From: a virus
DNA: 43,559 nt
Virus record (IMG/VR): IMGVR_UViG_3300024264_001189
Location: 1 to 43,559 of that record
Strand: one strand, 5' to 3'
Within the stretch, counting starts at the first letter, position 1, and every line of letters begins with the position of its first letter. Shown piece after piece: positions 196 to 15,859 of the stretch. Under the pieces are notes generated by a model. The model worked only from the letters and a program-made list of their open reading frames with translations. It did not search any database and was not told where the DNA came from. A program made the position numbers and the translations under genes.

Positions 196-861
196 TTATT
201 TATCAGTTTTTTTCCGATAAACAATTTTATCAGTACGTTGAGGACTGCCGCCTATAATTAAGTTTACTAGGTTAAGTATTTTCTCATCTCGTACATAAAA
301 GTACAATCCTTTAGTATAACCATTATTTTTTATTTCGTTGTAAGTGACCCTACCTATCTTTATTTTATCAGTATTACTGTCAACCCAATTAGTAAATTCA
401 CTATTTGTTTGCTTCCCTAATGTAACTTTGTACTGAAAGTCCTTTATAGTATCACTAATAATTGTATTAGCTTCTAATAAATTAATACCTTCGGTGCTAG
501 GCTCCCAAAATTCACAACAATGTAATAATTTTGATTTTAATTTATTCATCCATGATAAGTTATTAGAATATATTTGTATCCTTGGATTTTCTACACGCAA
601 TTTCATATCTTGAAAATTAGAAAATTCATTAAACATCTTTTGTGCTTGCTGTAGCTCAACAACAGGAACACTTTCGTGTCTTAAACCACGATGTAAAATT
701 ATTGGATCTACGCCGCTTTCGAAATTTTGTTGTAATATATCTAAGTTTTCTTTAGCCCATGCGTAGTTCTTGTCTCTAAATATATGCGCAAGCTGATTGC
801 GAACAACCAACTTGTACACATATTTGTCATAGAAAAGCTTGGTAGTCTCAAACTTTAACAA
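196..861 (-). CDS. Conserved phage protein of unknown function, probable TTG start
   Basis: About 221 residues, no recognised catalytic domain. The N-terminus (LLKFETTKLFYDKYVYKLV) looks like a natural start, and a TTG at 861 has AAGAGG nine bases upstream (871-876). The frame is open further upstream, with ATGs at 909 and 903 and a TTG at 918. Those starts would extend 55 to 71 bases into clpA and lack a clear Shine-Dalgarno. The protein is basic and rich in aromatic and asparagine residues, with no signal peptide or membrane segment. It overlaps the clpA stop by 14 bases, which suggests coupling. I do not recognise a function. The start call is inference from the ribosome-binding site. Confidence 0.65.
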   Translation of the reverse strand: MLKFETTKLFYDKYVYKLVVRNQLAHIFRDKNYAWAKENLDILQQNFESGVDPIILHRGLRHESVPVVELQQAQKMFNEFSNFQDMKLRVENPRIQIYSNNLSWMNKLKSKLLHCCEFWEPSTEGINLLEANTIISDTIKDFQYKVTLGKQTNSEFTNWVDSNTDKIKIGRVTYNEIKNNGYTKGLYFYVRDEKILNLVNLIIGGSPQRTDKIVYRKKTDK

Positions 862-3094
862 GCTCGATATCCTCTTTGCATTCCAGCAATAACTTTTCTT
901 CATCTGCATTAAAATCAATATTTAATACACCACCGTTTTTCAGATTACCAAACAATAGTTCTCTTGATAAAGATTTTTTAATTTCATTATCAATTACACG
1001 CTGTAAAGGTCTTGCACCCATTTTAGGATTAAAGCCTTTGTCTACTAGATAATCTAACGCTTCGTCTGAAACATTTATTACTACACCTTTGTCAGCAACC
1101 ATGCCTTTAAGTTCATGTAAAAATTTACCAACAATTTTAAGCATAACTGGCTTGCCTAATTTAGCAAATGTAATTGTAGCGTCAAGTCTATTTCTAAACT
1201 CTGGAGCAAAGAACTTTTTAAGTGCTTTATCTTCGTATTCGCTTTCAGCTACTTCGTTAAATCCAATAGCATTTTTCTCTGCATCTGCTGCACCTAAGTT
1301 AGTAGTAAGGATTAATACACAGTTACGTGCATCAGCCTCTTTACCATTACTTCCAGTAACAATGCCATTATCCATAAGTTGTAATAGAATCTGTGATACG
1401 TCTGGGTGTGCTTTTTCAATTTCATCTAGCAGTAATACACAGTTAGGGTGTTCTTGTAGTTTAGTAATTAACTGTCCTGCGCTATCTTCATAGCCTACAT
1501 ATCCTGGAGGAGATCCGATTAGTTTAGCAATACTATGTCGTTCTTGATATTCACTCATATCAAAACGTATAAGCTCACTTCCTAATTCTGATGCAAGTTG
1601 TTTTGCAGTTTCAGTTTTACCTGTTCCAGTTGGGCCCATAAACACAAATGATCCAATTGGACGATTGTCAGGCTTTAGTCCGGCTTGTGCTACTAAGATT
1701 TTATCTACAATAGATGAAATTGCTTCGTCTTGACCGTATACTACTTTCTTAAGATTATCTTCTAAGTTAGCCATGCCTTGTGTTTCTGTTTGTGCTACAG
1801 TTTCTACAGGAATCTTAACCATCTTAGCAAGTTCGAATTCGATCTCTGCTTCACCTACTGACCTTTCTTCAACTGCTTCTTTTAGATTAAATCTACTACA
1901 TGCAACATCAATTAAGTCAATTGCTTTATCAGGTAACTTTTTATCATTTTGATATTTAACACTTAGTCTTACAGCCGCTTCGATTGCTTGTTCAGTAATT
2001 GTTGTATCATGGTAATCTTCATAATACTTTTTAATGCCACGTAGAATATCTTTTGTTACTTCTGGTGTAGGCTCGTCAACTGTTACACGTTGGAATCGAC
2101 GCATCAATGCACGATCCTTTTCAAAACTCTTGCGATATTCTTCCCATGTAGTTGAAGCAACTACTTTGAGATTACCTTTTGTAAGTGCTGGTTTGAGCAT
2201 GTTAGCAAGATCATTTGATTTGTCTGAACCACCTGCGCCTGCGCCATTCATCATATGCGCTTCGTCAATAAACATTACTGTTTTGCCTTTACGCTCTAAT
2301 CCTTTAAGTACAAGTTTTAATCTTTCTTCAAAATCGCCACGGTACTTTGATCCAGCAAGCATTGCTCCGATATCCAAATTATAAACTTCATAGTCCTTTA
2401 AAAATTCAGGAACATTATCATTTACAATATTAAACGCAAGTCCTTCTGCAATTGCAGTCTTACCTACACCAGGTTCTCCAACAAGTAGTACATTGTTCTT
2501 TTGTCTACGTCCAAGTGCTAGTGCAATACTGTCAAGCTCTTCGGCTCTACCAATAATAGGATCAATTTTATCTTTTTCAGCAAGTTTATTTAAGTTAGAT
2601 GTAAATGCATTAAGTGCTCTATGCATTGCACCAGTTAGTTCGTCATCTTCGAATTGATCATCAACACCACTACTAATATAGGCTCCAAAAGATTCTTTAG
2701 CAATACCTGCCTTTTCTAACCAATAGTTACTAATAGATTTCTTTTCAGATAGTATACTTAAAAGTACATCTGATAATTCTATATGACTTCTGCCACTAAA
2801 AAGAACTTGTGTAAATGCTCTATTCAATACACGTTCTACTGCTTGTGTCTTTTTAGGTTTATGCTTATCATTGTCGATCATTATTTCTTCACAATGATTC
2901 TTTAAATGATTTTCTAAGTTTGTTTTTACAAATTTAGGATCTATGCCATAGCCTTCGACTAACTTTTCAAATGTTTCTTCGCACAACATTGAAAATAGCA
3001 AGTGCTCAACAGTAACATATTCGTGTTTAAGTTTCCGTGCATCTTTAATAGATTTTTCAAATACTAGTTTTAAACTTTCGCTAGGTTCTACCAT
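848..3094 (-). CDS. clpA: ClpA-type AAA+ unfoldase
   Basis: A full-length (748 aa) ATP-dependent Clp unfoldase. The order is: Clp N domain (about 1-140); AAA module 1 with Walker A GEPGVGKT at 206-213 and Walker B MFIDEAH near 273-279; AAA module 2 with GPTGTGKT at 487-494, LLLDEIE near 554-560, the arginine-finger region PEFRNRLD at 631-638 and sensor-2 GARPLQR at 693-699. Residues 610-612 are IGF, the loop tripeptide by which ClpA and ClpX dock on ClpP, so the protein looks able to feed host ClpP. No clpP is in the window. The family unfolds tagged or adaptor-delivered substrates in the cytoplasm. A sigma70-like promoter lies directly upstream, separate from the late lysis genes. GGAG precedes the ATG at a rather long spacing of 13 bases. 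Confidence 0.93.
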   Translation of the reverse strand: MVEPSESLKLVFEKSIKDARKLKHEYVTVEHLLFSMLCEETFEKLVEGYGIDPKFVKTNLENHLKNHCEEIMIDNDKHKPKKTQAVERVLNRAFTQVLFSGRSHIELSDVLLSILSEKKSISNYWLEKAGIAKESFGAYISSGVDDQFEDDELTGAMHRALNAFTSNLNKLAEKDKIDPIIGRAEELDSIALALGRRQKNNVLLVGEPGVGKTAIAEGLAFNIVNDNVPEFLKDYEVYNLDIGAMLAGSKYRGDFEERLKLVLKGLERKGKTVMFIDEAHMMNGAGAGGSDKSNDLANMLKPALTKGNLKVVASTTWEEYRKSFEKDRALMRRFQRVTVDEPTPEVTKDILRGIKKYYEDYHDTTITEQAIEAAVRLSVKYQNDKKLPDKAIDLIDVACSRFNLKEAVEERSVGEAEIEFELAKMVKIPVETVAQTETQGMANLEDNLKKVVYGQDEAISSIVDKILVAQAGLKPDNRPIGSFVFMGPTGTGKTETAKQLASELGSELIRFDMSEYQERHSIAKLIGSPPGYVGYEDSAGQLITKLQEHPNCVLLLDEIEKAHPDVSQILLQLMDNGIVTGSNGKEADARNCVLILTTNLGAADAEKNAIGFNEVAESEYEDKALKKFFAPEFRNRLDATITFAKLGKPVMLKIVGKFLHELKGMVADKGVVINVSDEALDYLVDKGFNPKMGARPLQRVIDNEIKKSLSRELLFGNLKNGGVLNIDFNADEEKLLLECKEDIELVKV

Positions 3095-3126
3095 AATTAA
3101 GTTATTTCTCCGCTTTATCTTTCTTT

Positions 3127-3155
3127 AGTATACTATTTCTTGAGCATTATGTCAA
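3127..3155 (-). promoter_or_regulatory. Sigma70-like promoter for clpA
   Basis: On the minus strand, TTGACA (3150-3155) and TATACT (3127-3132) are separated by exactly 17 bases, close to the bacterial sigma70 consensus. The -35 overlaps the last codons and stop of dnaJ (TTG ACA TAA). Transcription would start near 3120, giving a leader of about 25 bases before the clpA ATG. This suggests early, host-polymerase expression of clpA, apart from the late genes upstream. Confidence 0.75.
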
Positions 3156-3968
3156 GTTGTTTCTAACAACTTTCAATGCTTCTAATACATTATTATCTGT
3201 AATATTTGTAATGGTGGGTATGACTGTAATAATTAAATTGCCTGATGCACCAGAATTAAAATCTGGTAAGCCGTAGCCTGATATTTTAAATTTTGAAAAC
3301 TCTTTTGTGCCTTTTGGAATGTTTAAATTAATTGTTTTGTTATCTAATGTTTCTACTTTTTGTTTACAGCCTAGTATCAAGTCTAATGCACTAACGTACA
3401 AGTCTTGATGTATATCATTTCTATCTCGTTGATAATTCTTCTTAGGGTTAACACCAATGTTAACTACTAAATCACCTCTTTGATTAGCCCCAACGTGATT
3501 TCCATACCCCCTAAATCTTATATTCATTCCGTTAGTTGCGCCTTTAGGAATATTAATATCTAATCTTTCAAGGTCTCCATTGTTCAGTCTATAGCTCAAC
3601 ACTACATCCTTGCCAGTGTATACTTCTTCTAAATTTATAGTTGTTCGAAGATTAATATGCGGAGATACACCTCTAGCATTATTTCTCATATGCCCGAATA
3701 TGTCACCAAAAGGATTATTACCTTGCGGGTTTGTAAAATTACTAGTATTAAAATTGAATCCGCCAGCGCCAGCAGTTTGCTGATGATCGTAGGAAGCACG
3801 TTTATGCGGATCTTTTAAATTATCATATGCTTCACTTATTTGTTTGAATTTAGTATCGTCACCACCTGTTCGGTCAGGATGGTTTTCCATCGCTAACTTA
3901 CGATAAGATTTTTTGATATCTTCTGGTGACGAGTCCTTGCGAACTCCGAGAATAGAATAGTAGTCCAT
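3147..3968 (-). CDS. DnaJ-like co-chaperone, type II (no zinc finger)
   Basis: 273 aa. A J domain (about 1-65) carries the HPD motif at 30-32 that stimulates Hsp70 ATPase. A Gly/Phe/Asn-rich linker follows (about 66-97), then two beta-sandwich substrate-binding domains (about 100-265) with DnaJ C-terminal features such as LNIPKGTKEFSKFKI and GYGNHVGANQRGDLVV. The CxxCxGxG zinc-finger repeats of classical DnaJ are absent, so this is a type II protein like CbpA. It probably directs host DnaK to phage proteins during virion assembly or takeover. It lies between the lysis genes and clpA. The Shine-Dalgarno is weak (GATAAGTAATTGT before ATG). The family call is secure. The client set is unknown. 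Confidence 0.93.
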   Translation of the reverse strand: MDYYSILGVRKDSSPEDIKKSYRKLAMENHPDRTGGDDTKFKQISEAYDNLKDPHKRASYDHQQTAGAGGFNFNTSNFTNPQGNNPFGDIFGHMRNNARGVSPHINLRTTINLEEVYTGKDVVLSYRLNNGDLERLDINIPKGATNGMNIRFRGYGNHVGANQRGDLVVNIGVNPKKNYQRDRNDIHQDLYVSALDLILGCKQKVETLDNKTINLNIPKGTKEFSKFKISGYGLPDFNSGASGNLIITVIPTITNITDNNVLEALKVVRNNLT

Positions 3969-11069: not shown

Positions 11070-11428
11070 TAGTCTATCTCCACAATTGGAATACTTTTCT
11101 CTACAAACATTTCAAATTTGTTAGGTATACCGTCCCACTTTGCTGCATCTGCTGGAACATCATCAGGTCGTGCTTCGATAATGTTTGGCCAAATCGCAGA
11201 ATATTTTCTATTAACATGTTCCCAGTATGTTGCATTCTCGGGTCTCAATGCATTTTCGGGTACAATAGCATCCACAGGACATTCTGGCTCACATACTCCA
11301 CAATCGATACATATGTCTGGGTCAATTACAAGCATATCTTCGCCTTCATAGAAGCAGTCTACTGGACAAACTTCTACACAATCCATATGTTTACATTTTA
11401 CACAATTATCTGTTACTAAATATGTCAT
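11069..11428 (-). CDS. fdxA: 7Fe ferredoxin of the FdxA type
   Basis: 119 aa. Cysteines sit as in Azotobacter-type seven-iron ferredoxins: Cys9, Cys17 and Cys50 for the [3Fe-4S] cluster and Cys21, Cys40, Cys43 and Cys46 for the [4Fe-4S] cluster, with further Cys12 and Cys25. The N-terminal [19 protein letters not shown] and the [16 protein letters not shown] segment are close to the FdxA pattern of alphaproteobacteria. The C-terminal half ([16 protein letters not shown]) follows the same family layout. It would carry low-potential electrons in the cytoplasm. Cyanophages usually carry plant-type 2Fe-2S ferredoxin instead, so this form hints at a different host. Its stop is coupled to the next gene, and its start overlaps the oxygenase by four bases. 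Confidence 0.93.
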
Positions 11429-12006
11429 AAATTTCTTTCTCCATTAAATTGAATTACATAATTTGCAGCAATTCTTCTATTAACACTAGTAGGACTACTA
11501 GCATGATATAGTTTACTAGGAAATACTACAAATCTACCCTTCTTAGGAGAGACTCTTTTAACAATATTGTAATCTTTAGTAGAAGGATATTCTATGTCAG
11601 TGAATATTGTGTCGCCGTCTCCGTCGCTCACATAATATATAGCACTTAACCATCCGTTATCTTTTCTATCTGAATGAACAGGGTGATTTTTATTTGCATC
11701 ATACTTCGGAGTAGCAGATAAACAATTTACTTTGCATCTTTGTATGTTAGTAATTACAGTACCTAGTTCTTTTTCTAAAAAATACAACGGAGTATGAAAC
11801 AAAGGCCACAGATATGTAGCATCTCCTTCAAAAAATGCTACATGTGAGTATTGTGCTTCTTCAACTTCATTCGGTTTTAGTGTAGTGTTCTCGTCACCAT
11901 ACGTTGCACCACTATACTGCCAGGGAGTATCTGGATGAGTCATAGCAGAATATAATTCATTTTCTAACCTAGGCGGTAATATGTTGTCTAGTACAGTTAT
12001 GTTCAT
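11425..12006 (-). CDS. 2-oxoglutarate/Fe(II)-dependent oxygenase
   Basis: 193 aa double-stranded beta-helix dioxygenase. The iron triad is His111 and Asp113 (HSD) with His168 (LYHASSPT). An arginine at 177 or 178 ([13 protein letters not shown]) would bind the 2-oxoglutarate carboxylate. [15 protein letters not shown] and [12 protein letters not shown] are typical of the phage and prolyl-hydroxylase-like branch. Such enzymes hydroxylate protein side chains or nucleobases, and the substrate here is unknown. The gene overlaps the ferredoxin start by four bases and the clamp-loader stop by one, so all three are probably made together. 2OG oxygenases are frequent in marine T4-like phages. Confidence 0.88.
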
Positions 12007-12920
12007 TATAATCTTGCCAATCTAATCAAAGTTGCTGCCAAATTAATTTCAGGATCAACAACTAATGTGTGATCTACTAGGCCTTGTTTAATAATCAGCA
12101 CAGCTTTGTCTTGAGTTTCATCATCACCGAATAAATCAATGTTGTCATACAACCATCTATACACATCTTCCATTTCTTCTGCACGTATTGTACCACATAA
12201 CAGTTTACGTGCTTCTTGTATTTTACCTGCTTTGAATAATTCGACCATATCTAACTTCCAGTCAGTGCCGCCTGTGTCACCTTCATTGGGTGCAATCAGT
12301 TTATTATCCTGCGAGTTCATTTGAACCATATTAATACATTTACGCAAGTCTGGATATGTTGCTTTTACGTAGGTATCAAGTGTATCAAGATCAGGAGTGA
12401 CACCTTCAGTGATGAGGATCTCAGCGACTCTAGCCGTAAACTCAGTTTGGTCAATCTTAGCAATGTGAAAACCTTGACACCTACTGTGAATAGCAGGAAT
12501 AATTTTATTTGGATAATTACAAGTAAGAATAAAGCGAGAAGTAGTATGGTATTCTTCCATAACACCACGCAACGCCGCTTGAGCGTTTGGAGACAAATAG
12601 TCAGCCTCGTCAAGTAACACCACCTTAAAGTCCCCGAATGGGATCATCTGTACAAAGTTTACAATTTTATCACGTACATCATCTACTGAGTTTGTTCGTG
12701 ATGCGTTTATTTCAAGAATGTCTAAGTCGTTAACTTCAAGTTCATGAAATAATAGTTTTGCAAGTGTTGTTTTACCAATACCTGCGTTACCACTAAACAG
12801 CAAATGCGGAATAGTTTTGTCTTTAAGCCATGTCTTTACTTGACTACGCTGTGCATCATCTCGAAATACGTATCCATCTACTGTTTTCGGACGATACTTC
12901 TCTACCCATAATTCTTTCAT
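12006..12920 (-). CDS. 44: Sliding-clamp loader large subunit (T4 gp44-like)
   Basis: 304 aa AAA+ ATPase of the RFC/gp44 family. It starts LWVEKYRPKTVDGYVF, has Walker A GNAGIGKT at 44-51, Walker B LLDEADYLS near 102-110, the arginine-finger SRC at 146-148 and a C-terminal collar domain (about 225-304). In T4, four gp44 and one gp62 load the gp45 clamp on primer-template DNA. No gp62 or gp45 was recognised in this window. AGGA precedes the ATG, which overlaps the upstream stop by ATGA. The assignment is secure by motif order and length. Confidence 0.93.
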   Translation of the reverse strand: MKELWVEKYRPKTVDGYVFRDDAQRSQVKTWLKDKTIPHLLFSGNAGIGKTTLAKLLFHELEVNDLDILEINASRTNSVDDVRDKIVNFVQMIPFGDFKVVLLDEADYLSPNAQAALRGVMEEYHTTSRFILTCNYPNKIIPAIHSRCQGFHIAKIDQTEFTARVAEILITEGVTPDLDTLDTYVKATYPDLRKCINMVQMNSQDNKLIAPNEGDTGGTDWKLDMVELFKAGKIQEARKLLCGTIRAEEMEDVYRWLYDNIDLFGDDETQDKAVLIIKQGLVDHTLVVDPEINLAATLIRLARL

Positions 12921-13081: not shown

Positions 13082-13256
13082 TAGACTCTTGATCTTCTTT
13101 TTTCTTCTTACGCTTTGTGTAGAATCCACCCTTGAATTCAATTTCTTCAGATCGTTCACCGAACTTGAATTGTGTTATTTTTCCACCCTTGTCAAGGTAC
13201 TCTTGTATTAATTTTTTATCTTCTTCCGAGGTATCTCTCGGATTTTGTCCCATCAT
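13074..13256 (-). CDS. Small conserved basic phage protein
   Basis: 60 aa, starting MMGQNPRDTSEEDKKLIQEY, with a GGKITQF strand and a Lys-rich tail (FYTKRKKKKEDQ). The pattern recalls a small protein widely conserved in marine T4-like phages. The ATG overlaps the exonuclease stop, with AGGAG seven bases upstream. The second ATG at 13253 is possible too. The basic tail fits a nucleic-acid binder, but no family is named. Confidence 0.65.
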   Translation of the reverse strand: MMGQNPRDTSEEDKKLIQEYLDKGGKITQFKFGERSEEIEFKGGFYTKRKKKKEDQESND

Positions 13257-13792
13257 CTTTGAACTCCTAATTCTTTATATGCTAATTGAACGCCTCTTGC
13301 TTGAAAATAAGCATCTGCTAATGCATTGTGCAAATCAGTTTGTCCTAGCAATTTACGTGGATCGGTTTTACAACAGCCAAACAAGGTACGTGCGTCCTTA
13401 ACTTGCCAAAACTGCCATGGAATCGGTGTATCTGTACTACGGTACATATCTTCAAGGATAGTTAAATCAAAACCATATCCTTGACCCCAAATGGTGTCTA
13501 CACCAACACACCATTTAGATAATTGTTTTAGTGCTTCTTGAACACTTACTGCACCAGTTTGATCAAATGCTTCTTCTAGTGCTTTAGGATCTTGTTTACT
13601 CCACCATTCAATTGTAGAGTCACTTGTAGTACGTCCTAAACGATTTTGATCGTCTATACAAACTTTTAAATACAATTCTGAGTGTGGTTCTGTGTTGTTT
13701 AACGGATCAAATTTTACTGCACCTAAACTTAACACTGCACATTGTGGACGAGTGTCAAGGGTTTCAAGGTCAATCATTGCATGTGTAGTCAA
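13253..13792 (-). CDS. dexA: DexA-like DEDDh 3'-5' exonuclease, TTG start
   Basis: 179 aa. The DEDDh residues are all visible: Asp8 and Glu10 (MIDLETLD), Asp109 (GYGFDLTIL), His155 and Asp160 (DLHNALAD). STIEWWSKQDPKA matches T4 DexA and Rv2179c-like exonucleases closely. The enzyme would remove nucleotides from 3' ends of DNA or RNA. The start is TTG at 13792 with AGGAG seven bases upstream, and the next ATG (13777) would cut just before the catalytic Asp8. The ribosome-binding site lies in the right arm of an inverted repeat that also holds a sigma70-like promoter, so this gene is probably under its own control. Confidence 0.88.
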   Translation of the reverse strand: MTTHAMIDLETLDTRPQCAVLSLGAVKFDPLNNTEPHSELYLKVCIDDQNRLGRTTSDSTIEWWSKQDPKALEEAFDQTGAVSVQEALKQLSKWCVGVDTIWGQGYGFDLTILEDMYRSTDTPIPWQFWQVKDARTLFGCCKTDPRKLLGQTDLHNALADAYFQARGVQLAYKELGVQR

Positions 13793-13861: not shown

Positions 13862-14218
13862 TTATTTTACAAATTGTGCTAGTTCAGGTGCTTTCCAACC
13901 TTCTGGTTTAAGTACTTTACCATCTTCACGCTTGCGTACTTTGCCTGTGTCTGGATCAATCTTTGCAAAGTTTGTGTCCATTACTTCTTTCCAGGCCGCT
14001 TCTCCGTCCCAGCCAGCGGCACGTATTGCACCCATAGTAACAACTAAGATGTCTACTAGTGCGTCGAGTTGTTCGACCTTGTCATCGGCTGCCACAGCAT
14101 CTACTAGCTCGCCAACTTCTTCGTCTACAAGACTTAGATACATCTTATAGTTTGCTTCACTTGGCGGCTGATCACATGCCGTAGCGAACTTATTAATATC
14201 TTCAAATACGTTTGTCAT
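13862..14218 (-). CDS. mazG: MazG-like nucleotide pyrophosphohydrolase
   Basis: 118 aa, an all-alpha NTP-PPase. The metal-binding motif is EE..E (Glu33, Glu34, Glu37 in VDEEVGELVDA) with D..D at Asp52 and Asp56 (LDALVDILVV). The tail GKVLKPEGWKAPEL matches phage MazG-like proteins that end in a PxGWxxP-type segment. The family hydrolyses nucleoside triphosphates to monophosphates. Cyanophage MazG acts on dGTP and dCTP-type substrates rather than ppGpp according to published work, so pool management is the likelier role. GAGG lies a few bases before the ATG. It ends just before the inverted repeat. Confidence 0.88.
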   Translation of the reverse strand: MTNVFEDINKFATACDQPPSEANYKMYLSLVDEEVGELVDAVAADDKVEQLDALVDILVVTMGAIRAAGWDGEAAWKEVMDTNFAKIDPDTGKVRKREDGKVLKPEGWKAPELAQFVK

Positions 14219-14227
14219 TATTACCTC

Positions 14228-14632
14228 TTATTGATTTATAAATGAACTTGGGTCAATTGTTGCGTGTTCACCGTCGGCAAATTCAGCACCAATTTGTAAG
14301 CCTTCTGGCTTTTCGTCGCTGTATGCTAGAATGCTTTCTAGCTCTACTTTACGGAGTTCAACTTCGCCTTCTGGAGTCTCTAATTTAAGACTTCTAGTCC
14401 ATCGTCCATGCATTATAAGAATCCAATCTCCGACTTCGAAGGGATCCTTGTTACGTGGACCTTTTGAATATACTTTAGCCCAGCGTGGATAGATACCTCT
14501 AGTCTTGCCGTCGTCATTACCGAGTATAATTCCGCTTGCAGTAGTTTGCTCGCCGAAATGCATGTCTGTTACTAATACTTGATCGCCTATGGCACGTGGA
14601 GTACCTTTAATCGAATTTATATTTTGAGACAT
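14228..14632 (-). CDS. GroES-like co-chaperonin (T4 gp31 counterpart)
   Basis: 134 aa. It has the GroES fold pattern: PRAIGDQVLVTD near 13-24, a mobile loop GEQTTASGIILG near 27-38 that would contact GroEL, a WAKVYSKGP strand, and VGDWILIMHGRWTRS near 67-81. A C-terminal extension of about 30 residues is acidic. T4 gp31 replaces GroES so that GroEL can fold the major capsid protein, and this gene is probably the counterpart. AAGGA lies within the end of the upstream gene. With DnaJ and ClpA it makes three host-type proteostasis genes in the window. Confidence 0.85.
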   Translation of the reverse strand: MSQNINSIKGTPRAIGDQVLVTDMHFGEQTTASGIILGNDDGKTRGIYPRWAKVYSKGPRNKDPFEVGDWILIMHGRWTRSLKLETPEGEVELRKVELESILAYSDEKPEGLQIGAEFADGEHATIDPSSFINQ

Positions 14633-14634
14633 TG

Positions 14635-15051
14635 TTAACTATCCTTTTTTGTAAAGTTACCGTCGTCGTCTTCAACCCACTCGTCAAACATTTCTTTTTC
14701 TGTGTCAGACAAATCTGTTGTAGGCTCTGCTGTTGTTTCAACTTTTTGTTGCGCTCTAGTTGTTTTGCGTGTTGACTTTTTAGTAGCAGCTGGAGCAGTT
14801 TGTGTTTCTACAGGTTTTGCTGCTTGTGTAGGCTCTTCAGCAACTGGTTCGGAACCTTTATAATATTCGCGAACAAGATCTTCACGTTTTTTAATGATTT
14901 TGCCACCTGCGCCTAGTTCGTCGCCACGTGCATTTACACGAGCATTACCAACAGCAGGAGTTAATTCGTTCTTTTTTCTAAGCAAGTCCATATCTATTTG
15001 CTTACCTTGGAAGGATTTATAGACCTTCTGTCCTTTTTGTCTTTGTGACAT
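14635..15051 (-). CDS. Conserved marine T4-like phage protein behind a late box
   Basis: 138 aa. The N-terminal half (MSQRQKGQKVYKSFQGKQID, ARGDELGAGGKIIKKREDLV) recalls a protein conserved across marine T4-like phages. The second half is low-complexity Ala/Thr/Pro/Glu with Lys clusters, then an acidic end (EMFDEWVEDDDGNF). It stands behind a GATAAATA box, with AAGGAG seven bases before the ATG, which suggests late expression and perhaps a virion or scaffold role. No enzymatic motif. Confidence 0.7.
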   Translation of the reverse strand: MSQRQKGQKVYKSFQGKQIDMDLLRKKNELTPAVGNARVNARGDELGAGGKIIKKREDLVREYYKGSEPVAEEPTQAAKPVETQTAPAATKKSTRKTTRAQQKVETTAEPTTDLSDTEKEMFDEWVEDDDGNFTKKDS

Positions 15052-15082
15052 ACTTTTTCTCCTTATGGGTTAAATGCGTATA

Positions 15083-15090
15083 TATTTATC
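15083..15090 (-). promoter_or_regulatory. Late promoter box (GATAAATA) overlapping a stop codon
   Basis: GATAAATA on the minus strand, sharing its TAA with the stop of the DnaE-like gene. The transcript would start near 15077, about 26 bases before the ATG at 15051, leaving room for the AAGGAG site. This would drive the 14635-15051 gene and the co-chaperonin late. Confidence 0.65.
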
Positions 15091-15616
15091 GTAAGAACTC
15101 ACGCCAATCCAGGTCATATTGGATTGAATTAATCTTGTGTACACCTATCAAATACAGTACATATGATGCTACTGAACTACCTCTACCTACACCCCATACA
15201 ATGTTGTTCTCACGCATAAAGTCTACTAGATAGATCATATAGCGTAATAGATTGTGCATATCACGTTCGCCATATGCTTCCATTTCTTCCCATATACGAT
15301 CTTGTACATATTTTTCGCATGGTATTTCTGCTTTGCCTAGTACATATTCATATACATTAATGTCTTTGTATTTGTCTGGCATAAACCATTCTGATTGTAA
15401 TGCACCGTCAAATGTCTTTTGGTCTACATCTAGTGGAATATATTTTGTAAGTTCGGGGTGATATTGTTCACGCATTGCTGCATTAAACTTTTCAATATCA
15501 TCTGAAGGATCACACAACACCACGTGACATTTGTCAACATGACCTGAATAGATCATATCAACTAAGTCTTTATTTGTAAACCGTGGGATACCGAGTTCGT
15601 CTGTTTTCATTAGCAT
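15086..15616 (-). CDS. Truncated DnaE (DNA polymerase III alpha)-like protein
   Basis: 176 aa. Residues about 122-176 match the start of the bacterial replicase palm: a helix LLRYMIYLVDFMRENNIVWG, then GVGRGSSVASYV (142-153), then a HKINSIQYDLDWREFLR segment equivalent to the DnaE stretch that leads to the catalytic PDFDVDF motif. The protein stops right there, so the catalytic aspartates, fingers, thumb and clamp-binding parts are absent. The first 120 residues have no clear family (about 30-60 could be a small alpha/beta domain). T4-like phages replicate with a family B polymerase, so this cannot be the replicase. Similar short annotations exist in marine T4-like phages as I recall. No good Shine-Dalgarno; ATG at 15616 or 15610. 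Confidence 0.75.
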   Translation of the reverse strand: MLMKTDELGIPRFTNKDLVDMIYSGHVDKCHVVLCDPSDDIEKFNAAMREQYHPELTKYIPLDVDQKTFDGALQSEWFMPDKYKDINVYEYVLGKAEIPCEKYVQDRIWEEMEAYGERDMHNLLRYMIYLVDFMRENNIVWGVGRGSSVASYVLYLIGVHKINSIQYDLDWREFLR

Positions 15617-15625
15617 ACATGTATT

Positions 15626-15859
15626 TTAACTGATATTAATCAGATTGTCAAGAGAATTATCACCATTTTCTTGACTTCGTTGCATAGATTTTGCTCTACG
15701 CACAAGTGCTTCTTCTTTAAACATTTCTAGCACAGTAGATATTTGAACTCTTAAGTCAGTATTTTGTGTCATCCAGTACTTTCGACCTAACTCAATTATT
15801 TTGTCTTCTACTTCGCTGTCGGTTAAATCCGAAACGTTATTTACTAGGTGATTAAACAT
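15626..15859 (-). CDS. Small conserved helical phage protein
   Basis: 77 aa, almost all helical, starting MFNHLVNNVSDLTDSEVEDK and ending NGDNSLDNLINIS. Both ends recall a protein conserved in marine T4-like phages. The pattern of a charged amphipathic helix (IIELGRKYWM, LEMFKEEALVRRAKSMQ) suggests a small helix bundle or a binding partner of a larger complex. The ATG shares one base with the upstream stop. The function is unknown. Confidence 0.7.
   Translation of the reverse strand: MFNHLVNNVSDLTDSEVEDKIIELGRKYWMTQNTDLRVQISTVLEMFKEEALVRRAKSMQRSQENGDNSLDNLINIS

Follow-up and report, generated by a model that had tools for sequence, protein, structure and literature searches.

A phage gene for the probable N-terminal unit of a minimal, two-gene DNA polymerase III alpha

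The N-unit gene and its neighbours

We analysed a 43,559-nucleotide stretch of viral DNA (IMG/VR record IMGVR_UViG_3300024264_001189, hereafter the window), in which a 176-residue open reading frame runs along the minus strand from 15616 to 15086 with an ATG start and a TAA stop. This gene, its parts and its neighbours are arranged as follows:

15086..15616, minus strand: N-unit of split minimal DNA polymerase III alpha, 176 residues (PF07733, PHROG 11127, AlphaFold2, structural match)
15395..15616, minus strand: N-terminal 74 residues of the N-unit, family-specific (outside the structure-matched ranges; pLDDT mostly >84)
15089..15394, minus strand: DnaE-like region, residues 75-176 (VIA-align to 2hnh, equivalent to E. 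coli DnaE 277-393)
15173..15193, minus strand: GVGRGSS motif, residues 142-148 (R145, G146 and S147 equivalent to E. coli R362, G363 and S364)
15626..15859, minus strand: small upstream open reading frame, 77 residues (no match better than 0.03)
14635..15051, minus strand: downstream neighbour, PHROG 14844 (1.3e-16)
14228..14632, minus strand: second downstream neighbour, GroES-like or head morphogenesis protein (PHROG 931, 5.3e-15)
13862..14218, minus strand: MazG-like nucleotide pyrophosphohydrolase (PHROG 671, 5.5e-34)
13253..13792, minus strand: 3'-5' exonuclease, Rv2179c-like (PF16473, 2.4e-37; PHROG 255)
12006..12920, minus strand: T4 gp44-type clamp loader (PHROG 168, 1.9e-76)

The frame is a real and conserved feature, and the initial annotation was right that it is DnaE-like, carries GVGRGSS at residues 142-148 and stops just ahead of the catalytic aspartates. 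In a Pfam search, PF07733 (the Pol III alpha 'NTPase' domain) matched residues 99-175 (6.6e-11), and PHROG 11127 ('DNA polymerase', family length 171 residues) covered nearly the full protein (7.5e-44). Comparison of a structure prediction with DnaE, a check proposed in that annotation, was carried out on an AlphaFold2 model (pLDDT 92): residues 75-176 aligned by VIA-align to residues 277-393 of 2hnh (Z 10.9, rmsd 2.6 Å, 98 residues), and scores against DnaE and PolC structures ranged from Z 8.4 to 13.3, the best being to M. tuberculosis DnaE1. The DnaE-like part starts near residue 75, not near residue 120 as first proposed; for residues 1-74, which this comparison barely probed, no solved structure appeared among the matches listed.

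The C-terminal end paired with E. coli DnaE residues 384-393 in the solved-structure alignment, before M399-P400-D401, and counting from residue 392 the gap to PDFDVDF is eight residues. No PDFDVDF-like continuation was found in the DNA 3' of the stop codon, where the next gene begins after 34 bases, and the chain, whose last residue corresponds to E. coli 393, lacks the catalytic aspartates and fingers that a complete DnaE or PolC holds in one chain. No PHP family match was found in the protein either, only 74 residues preceding its palm part. With about 170 residues, a GRGS-bearing palm part, the fold of the start of the DnaE palm in residues 75-176 and an end before the catalytic aspartates, the window protein has the make-up of an N-unit. 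Its likeness to bacterial DnaE and PolC is in the first palm segment, by fold and by the GRGS motif, whereas the phage form comprises two chains without PHP or C-terminal domains and has an altered R390 position.

The setting, described earlier as a phage operon leading into a late gene, is more exactly a cluster for replication and nucleotide metabolism that holds the clamp loader, exonuclease, MazG, thymidylate synthase and DHFR. A gene equal in size and place to the PHROG 14844 neighbour is found in Atu_ph07, RaK2, CBB and PA5oct, and the family as a whole keeps this gene immediately 3' of the N-unit; its protein has a strongly conserved stretch, IDMDLLRxKNELTPAVGNARVNARGDELGxGGKI. The DxD-like 'IDMDLL' was considered as a mimic of the catalytic motif and rejected, because the PHROG 14844 gene adjoins the N-unit also where a real C-unit (the partner gene described below) exists. 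Many distant phages keep the GroES-like gene two genes 3' of their N-unit; the match of the window's copy to Cpn10 was weak and under the family cut-off. Elsewhere in the window, a 2OG-Fe(II) oxygenase-like protein (11425-12006) adjoins the clamp loader gene, and a Clp-type AAA+ ATPase (748 residues, PHROG 4871) lies beside a DnaJ protein (848-3968), forming a chaperone or protease pair of the phage. At 15070-15090, and at the equivalent place in 80 related loci (L002-L081), the N-unit stop codon usually falls within TAAATA or TAAGTA, beyond which come A/T-rich DNA and a Shine-Dalgarno-like AGGAG; by its letters the region resembles a late promoter of the T4 type (TATAAATA) and is a candidate for one.

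Conservation and end point of the N-unit family

A scan of IMG/VR returned at least 496 close relatives of the window N-unit. Eighty of these, together with relatives in nine isolated phages, had a common end point and differing DNA beyond it, and a more distant second set (n = 80) ended likewise at the same place. In all, 161 of 170 aligned N-units ended exactly where the window N-unit does and the remaining nine stopped 1-11 residues away, a non-random end point that answers the annotation's question of whether homologues stop together. The gene is also maintained, as that annotation had proposed: over 74 N-unit pairs the median pN was 0.11 against a median pS of 0.52, indicating that the protein is under purifying selection.

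G142, G144, R145, G146, S147 and S151 were invariant in the aligned N-units (n = 170, a set selected for GRGS, which 163 of 164 fetched loci have). The position of E. coli R390, which we take to be a conserved arginine on the active-site side, was Glu or Asp in every N-unit (170/170), and the Y340 position was aliphatic instead, nearly always Leu, Val or Ile. These two changes could affect catalysis.

The window N-unit was at most 43% identical to the isolate homologues found, and its lineage is one of metagenomic phages. Two close relatives (L004 and L042) end in TGA and have different downstream DNA, so that the usual next gene is displaced. The 141-kb Alishewanella phage Slicko01 carries an N-unit (L091:5713-6225) and also a C-unit; since this phage is below jumbo size, the split form is not confined to jumbo phages. 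In phage CBB, the 172-residue homologue CBB_328 stops at the point where the window N-unit stops and lies among equivalent neighbours; the accessible part of the published account treats it as a 'truncated' Pol III alpha and names no partner (PMC5259590).

A second gene with the complementary half

Group 2.2 jumbo phages were described as encoding a family B polymerase together with a split minimal Pol III alpha, made of one protein for the N-terminal, NTP-binding part and another for the C-terminal part that binds Mg2+ and the template, with their genes far apart (Iyer et al., 2021, PMC7824862). The window gene is of the N-unit kind of this system (PHROG 11127), and the reference phages with its homologues show the two-protein split, the distant genes, the family B polymerase and the families PHROG 11127 and PHROG 11778; unlike that set, the window represents a metagenomic lineage, and the split form extends to the smaller Slicko01. 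What we add is the exact break point, the invariant residues, the R390-to-Glu/Asp change and the spread of the family.

All nine reference phages with an N-unit had a second gene, the C-unit (~190 residues; open reading frames of ~190-217 residues), and all nine had a family B polymerase. The C-unit lies 11 kb (Slicko01) to 224 kb (Phosso) from the N-unit. It starts with a motif absent from the N-unit, often MPD[IV]DIDF, and spans the third catalytic aspartate, the fingers and the steric-gate histidine. Six C-units were found with the fingers profile PF17657 (XacN1, RaK2, Atu_ph07, CBB, Phosso and Slicko01), by matches that were weak but concordant, covering the same profile positions in each phage; the C-unit's own profile then detected the gene in PA5oct, Vibrio 2.275.O, SCTP-2 and 11 large IMG/VR contigs. 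By comparison, the PF07733 profile missed the C-unit, giving in the reference phages, apart from the N-unit itself, only weak matches, of which one had internal stops, and single-sequence scans with the XacN1 and Phosso proteins returned little or nothing. Near the N-terminus D-I/V-D-I-D is followed by KHNVGV (for KHAGGV), the segment with the third aspartate reads GFFKMDFLN, and LIRPxK and FKKSHxxxYA stand for LFRPGP and FNKSHSAAYA. The C-unit frames fall in PHROG 11778, 'DNA polymerase'.

The two genes co-occur. C-units were present in 63 INPHARED records, and 49 of the best 50 N-unit phage records were among the 60 C-unit records listed; IMG/VR scans gave at least 600 C-unit matches. Exactly two residues, mostly Met-Pro (equivalent to M399-P400), preceded DxDxD in 131 of 159 metagenomic C-units. 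The positions of D401, D403, D405, K553, D555, the fingers Arg-Pro and H760 were invariant in 165 C-units, a set selected for DxDxD from which no fetched C-unit was dropped for want of that motif. In DnaE, the catalytic aspartates are D401, D403 and D555, and H760 acts as the steric gate (PMC8485763). An AlphaFold2 model of one C-unit (pLDDT 90.5) aligned over residues 1-189 to 2hnh 399-781 at Z 8.2, with a best Z of 9.5 among Pol III alpha structures, and in the models each predicted half fits onto the Pol III alpha structure. Because the N-unit corresponds to DnaE 277-393 and the C-unit to 399-781, the break lies in a loop of ~5 residues; the C-unit start codon commonly corresponds to M399 of MPDFDVDF. 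The surroundings of the C-unit comprise helicase, primase and recombination genes, and the gene contexts of the two units fit a role in replication or repair.

Two kinds of match were set aside as lying outside the split form: that in Bacteroides phage DAC20, a full-length DnaE of 1276 residues, and frames of 564-578 residues matched by the N-unit profile. The latter are a single-chain DnaE without PHP, with GRGS, LPDVDIDF and fingers, encoded near a gp41 helicase gene:

L294:94-1794 (minus strand), L297:1534-3234 (plus strand), L302 and L303, on contigs G108, G119, G107 and G104: single-chain PHP-less DnaE

These contigs also hold a split C-unit, and phages with both may have three polymerases.

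In the window's own lineage, no C-unit was found within the 43.6-kb window, in 47 contigs of up to 84 kb, or, using a wider profile, in the large N-unit contigs G019 (of 200 kb) and G002 (of 359 kb). The RaK2 gene map places the C-unit among the UvsX, UvsW, gp61 and gp41 genes, and comparison with that map gave no matches to this block in the window-lineage contigs, G019 or G002. This would explain why no C-unit was found on them. The lineage contigs and G019 carry clamp-loader and structural genes, and several contigs gp43 too, a homologue of RaK2 gp43 lying on G068 and G074, outside the window itself. Conversely, four contigs (G084, G088, G104 and G108) have the block and a C-unit without the N-unit cluster. 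The first gene of G104 is 81% identical to G019:17214-18401, and several next genes match in order. On these sequence matches, the simplest reading would be that the two contig sets are two parts of one phage group, and the window's own phage may well carry the second gene.

A two-chain polymerase as the proposed product

We propose, with a probability of roughly 75%, that the product of the window gene is one subunit, the N-terminal and triphosphate-binding one, of a minimal C-family DNA polymerase split in two, and that its partner is encoded by a distant gene. With homology, exactly complementary break points, co-occurrence and conserved catalytic residues established, we infer the physical assembly, polymerase activity and biological role of the pair. 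The N-unit would contribute the first palm part and use its GRGS loop to bind the incoming triphosphate, while the rest of the palm, with all three catalytic aspartates, and the fingers would come from the C-unit. The chains would fold together without a covalent link, with the break in the loop that joins residues 393 and 399 of E. coli DnaE, to give a PHP-less polymerase of ~370 residues. This enzyme may supplement the family B replicase (gp43-type) alongside the gp44 clamp loader; its most likely task would be second-strand synthesis, gap filling or lesion bypass. The initial annotation's statement that the protein cannot polymerise DNA holds for the N-unit chain alone and probably not for the pair.

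An assembled pair might instead be something other than a replicative polymerase, such as a template-independent nucleotidyltransferase or a weakened component with a regulatory or structural part in the replisome. The acidic residue at the R390 position of every N-unit, the loss of Y340, and a family without thumb, PHP or C-terminal domains are compatible with this. We nevertheless consider it unlikely, since no variation was seen in the three aspartates, the fingers motifs, the steric-gate histidine or the equivalent of K553, as if under selection for templated choice of dNTPs. Less probable still is a decoy or inhibitor, a DnaE mimic that blocks host replication by engaging the host's partners of Pol III (tau, clamp, epsilon). 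A single chain similar to host DnaE without catalytic aspartates could be read this way, but DnaE's PHP, clamp-binding and C-terminal regions are missing, these phages also encode a dedicated partner with the other half, and both the match of the C-unit start to the N-unit end and the partner's invariant catalytic residues would be left unexplained. The lone decoy, sensor or inhibitor suggested at first finds no support here, the missing half being a separate gene in the same phages with invariant catalytic residues. Nothing in the data speaks for an artefact of sequencing or assembly, or for a recent frameshift cutting a longer polymerase gene, which had been named as a possible refutation; both are ruled out by homologues from independent contigs and isolates that share the end and differ downstream, and by the lack of a continuation 3' of the stop.

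Returning to the split polymerase, a fuller version of our proposal is more tentative and on balance doubtful: an active C-family polymerase of ~370 residues, with the triphosphate loop and the aspartates on separately regulated chains, could serve as a second polymerase that is switched on by supplying one half and works with a T4-like clamp loader beside the family B replicase. If true, the pair would be among the smallest C-family polymerases.

A polymerase active site divided between two distant genes is unusual, and the prediction of 2021 was made from sequence only. The N-unit/C-unit family is common in one viral collection. Should the pair extend primers, C-family catalysis would need neither the PHP nor the C-terminal domains, and there would be a reason why phages that encode a family B polymerase keep a second one.
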